Part shown: positions 15,419 through 20,429 of the stretch, piece by piece | How the letters are laid out: every line of letters begins with the position of its first letter | Numbering within the stretch: position 1 is the stretch's first letter | Assembly: GCF_003431325.1 (NCBI RefSeq) | Contig: NZ_CP010515.1 | Coordinates: 744,001 to 808,000 of the forward strand | From: Acidilobus sp. 7A | Lineage (GTDB): Archaea; Thermoproteota; Thermoprotei_A; Sulfolobales; Acidilobaceae | DNA: 64,000 bases | Direction of reading: 5' to 3' | Notes under the pieces: generated by a model | What the model saw: only the letters and a program-made list of their open reading frames with translations | Told to the model about the DNA's origin: nothing | Database searches by the model: none | Program-made: the position numbers and the translations under genes

Positions 15419-16510
15419 GTGAGCTTTGAGGTCAGGGCAGTAACACTTCACCTTGGAGTCACGGCCTCGGAGGCCGACGAGCTTTCAGAGGCCCTCGAGG
15501 GCGCGGTGAGCTCCCTACTGGAGGCCGTCGACTCAGCTGCATCAGAGGTCGGCAGGAGGCCGACGTACGTCAGGGTAGCCCTTCCCAGCCCAGGGGGCGC
15601 TGAGCTCAGGGGCCTCGCGAAGGCCCTCGAGGGGCTGGCCTCCCAGGCGGCTATAAGCGTCGGGCAGCTGGAGCTGAGCGTCAGCCCAGAGGACCTTAAG
15701 GCGCTGGCCTCCGCCGGCCTCTACGCCTCCCTCATGCTGAGGGAGCCGAGCTGGCAGCAGGCGAGGGCGGCGGCCTCCCTCATAGCGTCTGTGGCATCAG
15801 AGGACCCCTCCCTTGCTACCAGGGTTGCTGTCAACGTCTCTGGGGAGGACCACTTCATAACACCATACTACCCTCTGGCCTCAGCGATCCCTGGGAGGCG
15901 CCTGGTCACGGCCGCCCTGACCTACCCCTCGTTCCTTGCAGCGGCCTACAGGTCAGGGGGGCTCGGCGGCCTCACGAAGGCAATAGCTGAGGCCCACGGG
16001 GTCGCGGAGGCCCTTGCAAAGGCCGTGGCCTCAGGGGTCAACGCTGAGTATGCCGGGGTCGACCTCAGCGTCTCACCCTGGATGGAGGACTCATCGCTGG
16101 GGCTCGTCGAGGAGGTCTCAGGCGTCAGGATGCCGAGGCCTGGCTTCGTAGTGGGCGTCAGGCTGGTCAACGAGGCCGTAGAGGCCGCCTCGTCAGGCCT
16201 TAGGGCTGTCGGCTTCAACGAGGTCATGCTCCCCGTGGGCGAGGACTCAAAGCTCAAGGCTAGGGTAAGCGAGGGCGACGTCAACGCCAGGTACCTTGCC
16301 ATGCTCACTGGGGCCTGCGTGGCCGGCCTAGACATGGTTGCCGTGCCTGCCGACACGCAGGGGGTGGCAGGGCTCATACTTGACGTGGCCTCCTACTCAA
16401 GGGCCAAGGGGAGGACGCTGGGGGTGAGGGTCATACCTGTGGAAGGCGCGGAGCCTGGGGACAAGGTAGACCTTGACCGCTTCGGCGAGGCCCCAGTAAT
16501 TGCCATCTAG
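15419..16510 (+). CDS. DUF711 family protein
   Basis: About 363 residues of the DUF711 (UPF0210) family: early V-R-A-V-T-L-H-L, a central G-V-D-L-S-V-S-P, then F-N-E-V-M-L-P-V-G-E-D and a late G-L-D-M-V-A-V-P. Function unknown; structures in the family show a mixed alpha/beta metal-binding fold. The GTG at 15419 is chosen rather than the TTG at 15374 because a TATA-like taatatac (15383-15390) lies about 30 nt before it and V-R-A-V-T-L begins there. It is convergent with and overlaps by 4 bp the small membrane protein gene. Confidence 0.75.
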   Translation: MSFEVRAVTLHLGVTASEADELSEALEGAVSSLLEAVDSAASEVGRRPTYVRVALPSPGGAELRGLAKALEGLASQAAISVGQLELSVSPEDLKALASAGLYASLMLREPSWQQARAAASLIASVASEDPSLATRVAVNVSGEDHFITPYYPLASAIPGRRLVTAALTYPSFLAAAYRSGGLGGLTKAIAEAHGVAEALAKAVASGVNAEYAGVDLSVSPWMEDSSLGLVEEVSGVRMPRPGFVVGVRLVNEAVEAASSGLRAVGFNEVMLPVGEDSKLKARVSEGDVNARYLAMLTGACVAGLDMVAVPADTQGVAGLILDVASYSRAKGRTLGVRVIPVEGAEPGDKVDLDRFGEAPVIAI

Positions 16511-16953
16511 CCGCTGTAGGTGAACTGGCAGCTCGCCTGGTAGCCTGAGGCCGTGAACACGGCGACCCTGTAGGGCTCATATGGGTTAAGGGCCATAACG
16601 TACATGACTATGGGCGCGTAGTGCCTGGGCGGCACGTATAATTGGGTCGTGTTGGAGGCGTCCTCAAAGCCGGAGCTGTCGTACAGGTATGCGCCTGAGA
16701 TCTCGACTCCCGAGGTGCCGTTGTTGTAGGCCAACGCGTAGACCTCAAGCAGTCCCTGGGGGGTGCTAACAGCGCCGCAGGACAGCAGCGAGACCCTCTG
16801 CTGTTCTATTGATATACCTGGCGACCCCACCCATGATGATATTATAGGGGCCAGCCTGGCAAGCATGGCGGCCACGAGTACGGCCGCCATAAATATAGCT
16901 ATCGCTGTTAAGTTCTCCCTCAGTGGAAGCCCTGGGAGCCTCGGCCTCCTCAA
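16507..16953 (-). CDS. Membrane-anchored outside protein next to the archaellum operon
   Basis: 148 residues: a basic arginine-rich N-terminus (R-R-P-R-L-P), one membrane helix (about 15-35) and a ~110-residue domain of beta-strand character with two cysteines and N-glycosylation-type sites. The general plan resembles ArlF/ArlG or a pilin-like protein, but no recognised signature is present and the pre-helix site lacks the K/R-G-Phe pattern of class III signals. It is divergent from arlB across a 130-bp gap, so a shared role in the cell surface is possible. Codon use matches the neighbours. TTG start at 16953. Confidence 0.5.
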   Translation of the reverse strand: MRRPRLPGLPLRENLTAIAIFMAAVLVAAMLARLAPIISSWVGSPGISIEQQRVSLLSCGAVSTPQGLLEVYALAYNNGTSGVEISGAYLYDSSGFEDASNTTQLYVPPRHYAPIVMYVMALNPYEPYRVAVFTASGYQASCQFTYSG

Positions 16954-17084: not shown

Positions 17085-17708
17085 ATGCCCAGGAGAAATA
17101 GGAAGGGAATGGTGGGCATCGACACGGCCATAATCCTCATAGCGTTCGTCCTGGTGGCAGCCGCGGTGGCGTTCGTGACTCTCGATATGGGAATGACCTC
17201 GGCCCAGAAGGCCAAGCAGACTATGGAGAGCGGCCTCCAGGAGTCCTCGACGGCGCTGCAGGTCGACGGCGACGTTATGGCTTACGTTAACACAAGCGGT
17301 AATGTGCAGGTTATATACATACCGCTGGGCGTGACCCCTGGCACCGGCTACGTGAGCTTTGCCAAGAACCTATTGTCGGTATCGCTGATAGGCGGCAACA
17401 TGAGCTACGCTAACATATACAACGGCGTCGCTGAGATGATCAGTGGCTCAAATTCAAACCTGACCGCTATTGCAGTTAGCCTCAAAGGTACTGGAGCCGA
17501 CGCCGTGGTCTACTTCATACATGGCAACATAACGCCCTTCGTGCTGGGTCCCTACGGCCAGGCCCTGCTGGTTATACACCTGCCGTACGGGCTGCCTGCA
17601 TATAAGAGCTTCACGGTCACAATATCTCCCAGCGTAGGAGGGGCCATCACTGTAAGCAGGATCATACCGCCTGACAACGTGACTAACACGGTAATAGATC
17701 TCGGATGA
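17085..17708 (+). CDS. arlB: Archaellin (archaellum filament subunit)
   Basis: 207 residues. A short basic class III signal (R-R-N-R-K-G) directly precedes the hydrophobic helix M-V-G-I-D-T-A-I-I-L-I-A-F, the typical cleavage context for the prepilin peptidase ArlK/PibD: cut after the Gly at residue 8. The mature helix forms the filament core; the outer domain has many N-x-S/T sites, as in glycosylated archaellins. First gene of the arl operon. A hairpin with a downstream T-tract directly follows its stop, which would let arlB be expressed more strongly than the motor genes downstream. Confidence 0.92.
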   Translation: MPRRNRKGMVGIDTAIILIAFVLVAAAVAFVTLDMGMTSAQKAKQTMESGLQESSTALQVDGDVMAYVNTSGNVQVIYIPLGVTPGTGYVSFAKNLLSVSLIGGNMSYANIYNGVAEMISGSNSNLTAIAVSLKGTGADAVVYFIHGNITPFVLGPYGQALLVIHLPYGLPAYKSFTVTISPSVGGAITVSRIIPPDNVTNTVIDLG

Positions 17709-17759
17709 GGTGCGCAGCTTTGCGCACCAAGGGACCTAACAGACAACCTTCTTTTTTTG
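17709..17759 (+). terminator. Hairpin and T-tract after arlB
   Basis: A perfect 8-bp stem GGTGCGCA/TGCGCACC (17709-17716, 17721-17728) with a GCTT loop starts right at the arlB stop; about 21 nt later a T-rich run (cttctttttttg, 17748-17759) follows. This is a likely partial terminator giving excess arlB message over the rest of the operon. Confidence 0.65.
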
Positions 17760-17782
17760 TAGCTGAGGGCTCCGCCAGGGCA

Positions 17783-18097
17783 GTGAGCGAGGTCTCAGCC
17801 GCCCTGGCGGGCCTCTTCCTTGCACTTGGCGTTGTGGGGGCACTTATTATCGTCGAGGGCCGCGGCCTCCTGGCGTTCGTGCTTGGAATAACGGCCCTAC
17901 TGGTTGCAGCCCTCGACGTTCCTGTGCCCCTCTCAGTTATGTTTAGCCTCAAGGGCAGCTGCAGTCCCCCAGCTTTTTTCCTCTCGGGGCCAGGCCCCTC
18001 AGCGAAGAGCTCGGCCCAGCAAGGTTCACGCCCGTGGGGGTCCTGGAGTCCCTCTTTCTCAGGAAGGTCACACTTGCAAGGGGGTGCGTGGCCGTGA
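17783..18097 (+). CDS. ArlX-like region, N-terminal frame (frameshifted)
   Basis: Frame 2 of the second archaellum gene. From GTG at 17783 it reads V-S-E-V-S-A-A-L-A-G-L-F, two hydrophobic segments (about 5-25 and 30-50) and a short polar stretch. Near 17970, at a run of six T, the AGG-rich coding character leaves this frame and continues one base back in the frame of the next feature. After the run this frame changes to codons foreign to the genome (CGG, CGC, TGG), so its last ~40 residues are not real. With one more T the product would be one protein with the following frame, an N-terminal membrane part and a helical C-terminal part. Crenarchaeal arl operons carry arlX at this position. Confidence 0.5.
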   Translation: MSEVSAALAGLFLALGVVGALIIVEGRGLLAFVLGITALLVAALDVPVPLSVMFSLKGSCSPPAFFLSGPGPSAKSSAQQGSRPWGSWSPSFSGRSHLQGGAWP

Positions 18098-18744
18098 GCG
18101 AGCAGCAGAAGCCCCAGGAGCAGCAACAGCAGGTCGCCCAGGGCCCTGGGGAGCTCACGGAGGTGGCCAGGATGCTGAGGGACGCCGCGGCACAGCTCAG
18201 GTCAATAATTGACAGCGTCAACAACCCCCTGGCCGCCATAGCTGCCAACGCTATGCAGCCGCAGCCTCAGGCCAGGCAGGAGCCGTCCAGCAGGACCCAG
18301 GCAGGAGTCGCAGAGCGCGCCGAGGCCCAAGGGCCCTTGGTCGAGGAGCGGCCAAGCGAGGTAGAGGTTGCAGCCCCATTGACAGCAGCTCCTCTTCAAG
18401 CTGAAGAGTCAAGGCAGGTGGCCTCCCAGGGCATGAATGTGGAGAAGGTCATGAAGCTTCTGAGCCTCTTTGCTGACATGAGCGCGCTGTCAAGCGACTT
18501 CTTTGAGAACGTGGTAAAGGCCATGGGCTCCCTTGGTGTGTTAAGCGAGGGCGAGAGGGACGCCCTGGTTTACCTGCTTAACACCATAAAGCTTGGAATG
18601 GACAAGGGCCTGTCGCCCCAGGAGGTCATCTCGCTCCTCGCCATACTATTTAGCGAGGCTGGGGTCAGCAGCGACGATGTCATAAGGAGCGGCCTGACCA
18701 AGGTAATACTCTCGAAGCTCAGCAGGCAGGAGGAGTCGAGGTGA
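18034..18744 (+). CDS. arlX: ArlX-like archaellum ring protein, C-terminal frame
   Basis: 236 residues or fewer. The real coding sequence enters from the left in this frame (AGG-rich codons from about 17976). If the gene is independent, GTG 18094 (V-S-E-Q-Q) is a likelier start than GTG 18034. It has a Gln-rich segment, a helix (E-V-A-R-M-L-R-D-A-A-A-Q-L), a low-complexity Ala/Gln/Pro linker and a helical domain (about 135-225). In Sulfolobus ArlX forms a ring around the motor. The family assignment rests on position (between arlB and arlG), the upstream membrane segments and the helical C-terminus, not on a sequence signature. arlG starts 4 nt after its stop. Confidence 0.6.
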   Translation: MGVLESLFLRKVTLARGCVAVSEQQKPQEQQQQVAQGPGELTEVARMLRDAAAQLRSIIDSVNNPLAAIAANAMQPQPQARQEPSSRTQAGVAERAEAQGPLVEERPSEVEVAAPLTAAPLQAEESRQVASQGMNVEKVMKLLSLFADMSALSSDFFENVVKAMGSLGVLSEGERDALVYLLNTIKLGMDKGLSPQEVISLLAILFSEAGVSSDDVIRSGLTKVILSKLSRQEESR

Positions 18745-18748
18745 GAGC

Positions 18749-19120
18749 TTGAGCGACGTTGCGGTGAGTCACACGATCTTCATAATAGTTACCGTGATAC
18801 TGGTCTCGGCGGTCAGCGCCGCGGTTATACTTAAGACATACCAGATAATGAGCGCTTACTCCCAGAGGTCCAGCGCTGAGGCCCAGTCGCTGGAGACGCA
18901 GCTGACCCCTGTGTACGCCTACTATAACGCCTCCGACTCCTCATACTACATCTTCGTCAGGAACAGCGGCTACCTCACCTTAACTCAGGCGGAGCTCAGG
19001 TACGTTGAGGTCTTCCTTGGCCCCGCCAACGGCACCCTGAACATGTACCTCTACTCACAGCAAGGCGGCCCGGGGACCTGGGGGCTAGTTACCATCTACG
19101 GCTCCCAGGGGGCCAGCTGA
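18749..19120 (+). CDS. arlG: Archaellum stator protein ArlG, N-terminal frame (frameshifted)
   Basis: 123 residues: an N-terminal membrane helix (A-V-S-H-T-I-F-I-I-V-T-V-I-L, about 5-30) and a beta-sandwich with N-x-S sites, as in ArlG, which caps the motor in the pseudoperiplasm. The frame stops at TGA 19118 right after a G5 run (19107-19111, cccagggggcc). The expected last strands, A-E-I-V-V-R-T-G and V-I-V-S-L-P-D-G, are encoded directly after it in the -1 frame (19121-19242). Joined, the protein would be about 164 residues, the normal ArlG size. Either one G is missing here or the gene is broken or recoded. Confidence 0.75.
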   Translation: MSDVAVSHTIFIIVTVILVSAVSAAVILKTYQIMSAYSQRSSAEAQSLETQLTPVYAYYNASDSSYYIFVRNSGYLTLTQAELRYVEVFLGPANGTLNMYLYSQQGGPGTWGLVTIYGSQGAS

Positions 19121-19242
19121 GCCCGGGCGCCATGGCTGAGATAGTTGTGAGGACCGGGGCTAACTTCGGCAACACAGTTCACGTCATAGTGTCGCTGCCG
19201 GACGGCCAGGAGTTCAGCACATACCTTCAGCAGTCCCCTTAG
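19121..19242 (+). pseudogene. ArlG C-terminal part in the -1 frame
   Basis: Codes, from the in-frame stretch before ATG 19132 to TAG 19240, an end typical of ArlG: A-E-I-V-V-R-T-G, N-T-V-H-V-I-V-S-L-P-D-G-Q-E-F-S-T-Y. The codon use is that of the genome. It has no own ribosome-binding site and is best read as the missing end of the preceding gene. arlF starts at the next base after its stop. Confidence 0.65.
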
Positions 19243-19641
19243 GTGGTACGCGTGGGCGTTGAGGTAGCCGTAGGTATGGCAATAGCTGCAGTCGCCCTGG
19301 TGGTGGTGCTGGGGTCCCTGGCTGGAATGATATTGAACGCCTACCAGGTCGCATCGCTGCCGCGCAGCTACCAGCCCCTGGCTTACGTCAGGGTGCCCTC
19401 GGCGCTCCTCGCTGCTAATAACAGGACGCTGCTCGTAAACGTGACAAACTACGGCCAGGAGCCCCTGTACCTGGTCGAGGACACCTACGTTATAGTTCTT
19501 TACTACACGCCCGCGGGACGTGAGGTCCAGGTGTTCAACCTGACCTCAAGCCCTCCTGTGCTCTACTTCGTGGGCGGTACTCAGCGCCTTACTCGGCCGG
19601 CTCAGGGCTCATGCCAGGCGAGACCATGGAGCTCAACCTGA
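19243..19641 (+). CDS. arlF: Archaellum stator protein ArlF (frameshifted near its end)
   Basis: Up to about residue 116 this is ArlF: a membrane helix (V-A-V-G-M-A-I-A-A-V-A-L-V-V-V-L-G, about 8-32) and a beta-sandwich that binds the S-layer. At cgccttactcgg (about 19587) the frame changes: this frame ends in T-R-P-A-Q-G-S-C..., while the -1 frame reads Y-S-A-G-S-G-L-M-P-G-E-T-M-E-L-N-L, the proper ArlF end, and continues to about 19735. No stop codon then separates it from arlH in that frame. A further -1 step would end it at TAA 19736, 4 nt before the arlH GTG. GTG 19252 is an alternative start. Confidence 0.7.
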   Translation: MVRVGVEVAVGMAIAAVALVVVLGSLAGMILNAYQVASLPRSYQPLAYVRVPSALLAANNRTLLVNVTNYGQEPLYLVEDTYVIVLYYTPAGREVQVFNLTSSPPVLYFVGGTQRLTRPAQGSCQARPWSST

Positions 19642-19739
19642 CGCTGTCGCAGCAGGCCCTAAGGGGTCAGCCAATAACGGTAACAGTGGTACCCCTTAAA
19701 GCACCCCTGCCCAGTATTCCTTTACACCGGGCCCCTAAA

Positions 19740-20429
19740 GTGATACTCAGCACTGGGAACGAAGAGGTGGACTCAAGGCTTGGAGGAGGCATACCTCACC
19801 CAAGCCTTATAGCCATTGAGGGCGACAACGGCTCGGGCAAAACCAGCATCGCGCTCCTGCTCGCACAGACCTACCTGAGGGCGGGCCTCTCGGTGGCTTA
19901 CTTCACCAACGAGGGAAGCAGCTACACTTTCATAAGCAAGGCTAAGGAGTCCGGCTTCGACCTCTTCGGCTACTTCATCGGGGGGTCGCTGAGGGTCTAC
20001 ACCATGAACGTGGGGATTCCAGTGACAAGAGACACCGCTGAGAGGCTCCTGGGGGCCCTCGCTTACGTGTTCACCTCAGGGAAGCTGAACTTCAACGCAG
20101 CTGTGATAGACACGCTCTCATACCTGTCATCGGCCGCCCCAGAGGGCTCAATAAAGATGCTCTTCGAGGCCCTCAGGAAGTCTGCTGACAGAGGCATGAG
20201 CGTGGTCGTCACGTTTCACCCTAACACGCTGCCGAAGACACTCTCGGAGCCCATAAAGGCTACCTGCGACGGCTACATCAGGCTGAGCGAGGCGAGCCTC
20301 GGCGGCAGGAGGCTAAAGGTGCTGACTGTGGTTAAGTTCAAGGGCCTCCCCTCCGGGGCCCAGAGCTCCATAACCTTTGACGTGGACCCCGCCTTTGGCA
20401 TCAAGGTGATACCCATAGTTCTGTCCTAA
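19740..20429 (+). CDS. arlH: Archaellum ATP-binding regulator ArlH
   Basis: KaiC-like P-loop protein of the archaellum motor. From GTG 19740 it is 229 residues, the family length, opening with V-I-L-S-T-G-N-E-E-V-D-S-R-L-G-G-G-I-P, the usual ArlH start. Walker A G-D-N-G-S-G-K-T-S lies near residue 30; the Walker B aspartate (A-A-V-I-D-T-L-S-Y) is near 125. It binds ATP and regulates ArlI assembly. The open frame extends upstream to 19611 and beyond without a stop, but that part encodes the end of ArlF. arlI follows after 11 nt. Confidence 0.88.
   Translation: MILSTGNEEVDSRLGGGIPHPSLIAIEGDNGSGKTSIALLLAQTYLRAGLSVAYFTNEGSSYTFISKAKESGFDLFGYFIGGSLRVYTMNVGIPVTRDTAERLLGALAYVFTSGKLNFNAAVIDTLSYLSSAAPEGSIKMLFEALRKSADRGMSVVVTFHPNTLPKTLSEPIKATCDGYIRLSEASLGGRRLKVLTVVKFKGLPSGAQSSITFDVDPAFGIKVIPIVLS

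Follow-up and report, generated by a model that had tools for sequence, protein, structure and literature searches.

A predicted programmed −1 frameshift in arlX would join a membrane anchor to the archaellum ring domain in Acidilobus and three other genera

The DNA analyzed here is a 64,000-nucleotide window (bases 744001–808000 of the closed 1,539,049-base genome of Acidilobus sp. 7A) that carries an archaellum operon, in which the gene arlX is divided between two overlapping reading frames. The first open reading frame (ORF1; window positions 17705–18097, + strand, 130 codons) encodes a two-helix membrane part up to about position 17973, followed by a 38-codon tail ending at a TGA stop (18095–18097). 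The membrane part is followed by the heptamer T_TTT_TTC (17974–17980, +), which lies in 0-frame phase (GCT TTT TTC) and is the predicted site of a −1 shift. The overlap (17980–18093, +), when read in the −1 frame (PLGARPLSEELGPARFTPVGVLESLFLRKVTLARGCVA), links ORF1 with ArlX, a reading indicated by third-position substitution bias and codon usage. Near the end of the overlap, a Shine-Dalgarno-like GGGGGTG (18080–18086, +; duplex with the anti-Shine-Dalgarno sequence of −12.8 kcal/mol) precedes an internal GTG start, which overlaps the ORF1 stop as GTGA and opens a short ArlX of 216 amino acids containing the cytoplasmic ring domain (18094–18744, +).

ArlX has been described as a crenarchaeal ring protein, essential and with a single transmembrane helix (PMC8978795). 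The window protein had no Pfam match and no ArlX match in Pfam or NCBIfam, and its only NCBIfam match was weak and unrelated (Rv3852 family, 18.3 bits vs. a cut-off of 100). Its identity as ArlX, judged from the sequences, rests on synteny, the gene lying between arlB and arlG/arlF-H-I-J, and on similarity to ArlX proteins of other arl operons. An N-terminal membrane anchor together with a cytoplasmic domain is present only when both frames are joined. The ArlX (FlaX) of Sulfolobus acidocaldarius likewise lies between arlB and arlG/F and has a ring/scaffold domain behind an N-terminal anchor (PMC8978795, PMC4307647), but it is described as one open gene whose product has one transmembrane helix, whereas in the window the anchor contains two hydrophobic stretches and is encoded in the other frame. 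A preliminary description of the window had counted arlX among the stator genes; ArlX is a ring/scaffold component, unlike the stator proteins ArlF and ArlG. Directly after arlB there is a perfect 8-bp hairpin (GGTGCGCA-GCTT-TGCGCACC, 17709–17728) followed by a run of seven T (17752–17758), both kept in the related genome G001. These are probably a terminator or attenuator of the arlB transcript, in which case the actual arlX start may be a later GTG, in VSEVSAAL.

The archaellum operon was available from two other genomes of the genus, whole in G001, which we take to be Acidilobus saccharovorans 345-15, and partly in G002, on a 5.5-kb contig; the N-terminal part of arlX was not found in G002 or G003. 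The preliminary description had arlX pass to the −1 frame at the run of six T, and this was confirmed. The frame changes from 0 to −1 at T6C (17974–17980), codons downstream match genome usage only in the −1 frame, and G001 has the same T6C in the same phase, the same overlap, and an identical ORF1 layout (L037, 10049–10441). Codon-usage scores over the overlap were +0.48 bits per codon for the −1 frame of the window, the same as for ArlX itself, vs. −0.48 for the 0 frame, and +0.40 vs. −0.39 in G001.

Approximately 45 arlX loci of the family and order were compared by eye and fell into four classes. In the majority (class A), arlX consists of two coupled genes, a short two-helix ORF and then ArlX (ORF2), whose start (GTG, TTG, or apparently ATT) stands behind a Shine-Dalgarno sequence overlapping the ORF1 stop. 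The long −1 overlap seen in the window defines class B, with 12 sequences from four genera in two families: the window and G001 (genus g1, heptamer T_TTT_TTC); Candidatus Hestiella, UBA158, and Caldisphaera sp. KMA_Bin23 (g3, C_CCT_TTC); two copies in G027 (g7, C_CCT_TTA); and, in family f3, five copies of genus g20 (two in G058, one each in G059, G060, and G061; T_TTT_TTC). The membrane part and ArlX are fused in a single frame in G019, G024, and G048 (class C), and class D, which includes the Aeropyrum-size genomes G004 and G005, has arlX without the membrane part. In G032 the two ORFs overlap as TTGA. The idea that all two-ORF, two-frame loci are frameshift genes was rejected, most of them being ordinary coupled genes in which start and Shine-Dalgarno sequence overlap the first stop.

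Class A loci, found across most other families of the order, resemble those of class B in the order of a two-helix ORF and ArlX and in having an internal Shine-Dalgarno sequence and start for a shorter form; they differ in that ORF2 has its own start overlapping the first stop, begins with a conserved W(P)CxCxxCR motif, and has no heptamer with a long overlap. The motif, possibly metal binding, is lost in the frameshift lineages. In family f7 (L078–L086), ORF2 apparently begins at ATT, an unusual start codon, which overlaps the ORF1 stop and is preceded by a near-perfect Shine-Dalgarno sequence (GGAGGTGAG....ATTGAG).

Within class B, the −1 switch occurs at an equivalent place in all of the genera, directly after the two-helix membrane domain in g3, g7, and g20 as in Acidilobus, and a phased X_XXY_YYZ heptamer follows the second hydrophobic stretch in 12 of 12 sequences. 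Overlap lengths are 33–44 codons. Across 612 conserved ORFs of the window genome (185,788 codon sites), T_TTT_TTC occurs in phase only twice, once in arlX and once close to the beginning of a stop-to-stop ORF.

Substitutions within the overlap indicate which frame is read. Counted by −1 codon position (1/2/3) in three independent close pairs, they were distributed 18/9/43, i.e., 43 of 70 at third positions (p = 1.4e-6), and inclusion of a fourth pair gave 21/10/45 (p = 3e-6). The most variable sites in the overlap are the second positions of the 0 frame, whose tail is not conserved as protein, and upstream of the heptamer the bias turns to third positions of the 0 frame (29/13/13). Purifying selection has acted on the membrane part as well as on the −1 part. 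At the level of sequence, this conservation of frame proves that the −1 segment is translated in continuity with ArlX; it does not extend to the efficiency of a shift or its exact site.

Three of the 12 class B sequences have no ATG, GTG, or TTG able to start the −1 segment independently; such codons are lacking in G001 and G012, the second G058 copy (G058b) has only a late TTG (codon 30), and in G060 the sole candidate is an ATG 37 codons past the heptamer, near the segment end. A near-cognate start with a good Shine-Dalgarno sequence was found in none of the 12 segments. A frameshift is the simplest route to translation of the −1 segment. That the fused product is a natural form is supported by the one-frame fusions in relatives (class C).

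The 0 frame of the overlap, although not conserved as protein, remains open up to the region of the Shine-Dalgarno sequence and start more often than chance would predict. With the −1 protein fixed and synonymous codons chosen freely, the expected proportion of open frames is 14–16% for g1, 2–3% for g3, 2–20% for g7, and 1–5% for g20, 0.009 being the lowest value for a single sequence. In all 12 sequences the TGA that ends the 0 frame either falls on a Shine-Dalgarno sequence and a potential ArlX-frame start or is only a few bases away from them, counterparts of the site at 18080–18086 being present in the other 11. The TGA is directly overlapped by the start (ATGA, GTGA, or TTGA) in most, and lies inside the Shine-Dalgarno sequence in one copy of G027 (G027b) and in g20. 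Ribosomes that do not shift would thus terminate and re-initiate to give a shorter, anchor-less ArlX. Many class A loci (L078, L080, L082, L084, L091, L095, L218, L232, and others) also have an internal Shine-Dalgarno sequence and start, before MSE, VSE, or LSQ in ORF2. Comparison of the loci suggests that an additional, shorter form of ArlX occurs widely across the order, and class D genomes would make only the anchor-less form.

We consider it probable, with good but not full confidence, that arlX uses a programmed −1 ribosomal frameshift to unite its membrane anchor with the ArlX ring domain. Ribosomes would begin on ORF1 and make the two-helix anchor; at T_TTT_TTC, the phenylalanine transfer RNAs in the P and A sites would re-pair one base back, and reading would go on in the −1 frame, first through a linker of 38 codons and then through the cytoplasmic ring domain, to yield an anchored ArlX of up to approximately 346 amino acids. 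Ribosomes that fail to slip would add the 38-codon tail, stop at the TGA overlapping the GTG start behind the Shine-Dalgarno sequence, and may re-initiate there on the short form. This proposal is built on the frame switch, the heptamer, selection on the −1 frame, the openness of the 0 frame, and the Shine-Dalgarno sequence with its start, from which we infer the slip itself, its efficiency, and both products. Predicted peptides that would mark the products in the window are GSCSPPAFFPLGAR (tryptic, trans-frame), FTPVGVLESLFLR (−1 segment), and GSCSPPAFFLSGPGPSAK (unshifted 0-frame product), with GNCDLSGFFPLGAGTLR and GNCDLSGFFLSALAPSGK as A. saccharovorans equivalents. The relative amounts of anchored and soluble ArlX would thus be set by the frameshift. 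We put at about even the chance that arlX in several genera of the order Sulfolobales (GTDB) is a ratio-setting frameshift gene in this sense, controlling how many ring subunits are tethered.

Several observations weigh against a programmed shift or loosen its details. Over the first 10 codons past the heptamer, substitutions (9/3/9) do not separate the two frames, so that the exact site of the slip is assigned from the heptamer. In the AT-rich genomes, codon shuffling places a heptamer at some point of the permissible stretch in 4–37% of cases for a single sequence, which is not rare. In the pairs G059/G061 and G058/G058b, the 0-frame score is slightly above the −1 score. No conserved downstream RNA structure was found by minimum-energy folding, which does not cover pseudoknots; z-scores were 0.4, 1.5, 0.9, −0.2, −2.7, and 0.3, the −2.7 belonging to a single copy, G027b. 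Downstream stimulatory structures are common in −1 frameshifting, though not obligatory. Only g3 has a clear Shine-Dalgarno-like stimulator just upstream of the heptamer (about −10 kcal/mol); the value in A. saccharovorans is −8.5 kcal/mol, and the element is absent from the window and g20.

The strongest alternative for arlX is that it comprises two separate overlapping genes, ORF1 encoding a stand-alone membrane protein and translation of the −1 segment beginning, with no frameshift, at a start of its own close to the heptamer, possibly a non-canonical one. Two-gene loci, with the ORF2 start behind a Shine-Dalgarno sequence overlapping the first stop, do make up the majority in the order; the class B overlap ends in a Shine-Dalgarno sequence and start from which the short ArlX could be made without any slip; and in some members of g20 a GTG or TTG lies 13 codons past the heptamer. 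The −1 segment, however, is conserved as protein upstream of the internal start, and the scarcity of starts described above and the unconserved 0-frame tail both speak against this arrangement, which also leaves the phased heptamer without a reason. We regard it as improbable.

Transcriptional slippage, in which RNA polymerase slips on the run of six T and yields a subset of messenger RNAs with the frames joined, has in its favor the run itself, present in Acidilobus and g20. The g3 and g7 sites (CCCTTTC and CCCTTTA) have no run longer than three and yet show the same switch, and with no long homopolymer in these genera slippage was rejected as a general mechanism and is very improbable overall. 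Mis-assembly or decay of arlX, which the three one-base deletions in the adjoining arlG and arlF and a one-base insertion in arlJ of G002 might suggest, has a negligible likelihood, since two separately assembled Acidilobus genomes agree in architecture and heptamer, 10 more copies from three other genera show the same switch, and selection is seen in both frames.

Programmed frameshifting is a familiar phenomenon in viruses and bacteria. A 2021 review names one proven cellular case in archaea, the alpha-L-fucosidase gene fucA1 of Saccharolobus (Sulfolobus) solfataricus (PMC8211752, PMC8037382), states that use by other archaeal genes is not known, and lists viral genes and magnesium chelatase as predicted cases (PMC8211752). 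Like arlX, fucA1 is a crenarchaeal cellular gene with 0 and −1 frames, a short overlap, and a slippery heptamer. It is intact in most related species, whereas the arlX switch, in a component of the motility motor, is conserved across four genera and two families; the arlX slip is a prediction only. Bacterial dnaX and magnesium chelatase share with arlX an X_XXY_YYZ site and, as predicted for arlX, give shifted and unshifted products from one gene, and the magnesium chelatase cases include methanogenic archaea (PMC8211752, PMC3711429). In contrast, dnaX has an upstream Shine-Dalgarno sequence and a downstream stem-loop, neither of which is consistent in arlX, and the magnesium chelatase sites are poly-A, unlike the arlX heptamers, in genes that differ. 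Our literature search found no paper linking arlX/flaX or the archaellum with frameshifting. If the prediction is true, the programmed frameshift of arlX, an archaeal cellular gene, would be one that is conserved through phylogeny, and it would provide a natural comparative model for archaeal recoding, as close relatives do the same job without a frameshift. The annotation of arlX would change in the class B lineages, where it is now readable only as two unrelated-looking ORFs, and the results suggest a motor ring that may occur both anchored and free.

Downstream of arlX, arlG (18749–19120, +) is cut short by a one-base deletion in a G run at 19108–19112, with a homologous continuation in another frame to 19240, arlF (19243–19738, +) has two one-base deletions (19577/19578 and 19705/19706), and arlH (19740–20429, +) is intact. 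The frame change reported for arlG at its G5 run was correct; the run is one base short of the G6 of G002, and G001 has GGGAGG. The change in arlF is also real, but the preliminary description placed it at a single site near 19587 instead of two. Its statement that arlB, arlH, arlI, and arlJ are open in the window held. None of the three deletions is present in G001, where ArlG (164 amino acids) and ArlF (165 amino acids) are open, or in G002, where both frames are likewise open.

The preliminary description had been struck by the clustering of three frame changes in one direction and had offered missed bases, decay, or programmed −1 recoding as causes. Each gene does require a −1 correction, but for arlG and arlF this is trivial, as any deletion does. 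Recoding fits arlX, with its cross-genus conservation, phased heptamer, and selection on the −1 frame, and was rejected for arlG and arlF, whose deletion sites have no X_XXY_YYZ heptamer, whose frames are intact in G001 and G002, and of which arlF would need two shifts. Missed bases or decay are conversely the choice left for arlG and arlF and fail for arlX, conserved as it is across genera. One common cause for all three genes was rejected, since the arlX switch is conserved across genera and the other changes are not. The arlX switch is certainly beyond chance and the three deletions within 0.6 kb exceed the background. The apparent cluster of three genes is a coincidence of two different things.

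In the sequence comparison, then, the arlG and arlF deletions are either assembly errors or very recent inactivation, a separate matter from arlX. A rough frameshift census of 864 kb of the window genome against all of G001 (663 genes), in which many apparent N-end shifts came from the use of stop-to-stop ORFs, gave about half a dozen other single-base coding deletions, a background low enough to make three in 0.6 kb a cluster. This favors real and recent deletions with loss of archaellum function in the strain, as do the independent indel in arlJ of G002 and the finding of no arlI ortholog in the 84%-complete G003 (the best match being a distant ATPase). On the other side, one of the three deletions falls within a G run, and deletions predominate among the background indels of the window assembly. 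Substitutions in arlG and arlF derived on the window branch remain biased to third codon positions (14 of 22) with no sign of relaxed selection, and the two genes were thus under selection until very recently or still are. We place real loss a little short of an even chance.

A single extra T within a short T run disrupts the arlJ of G002 (L038), so that two of three Acidilobus genomes show arl indels. In G011–G014 and G032 (L046, L049, L051, L052, and L053), arlI is interrupted by a large insertion, in-frame or split, that is probably an intein. A small membrane protein gene (16507–16953, − strand) adjoins arlB in the window, and a similar gene stands beside the operon in G012 and G014.

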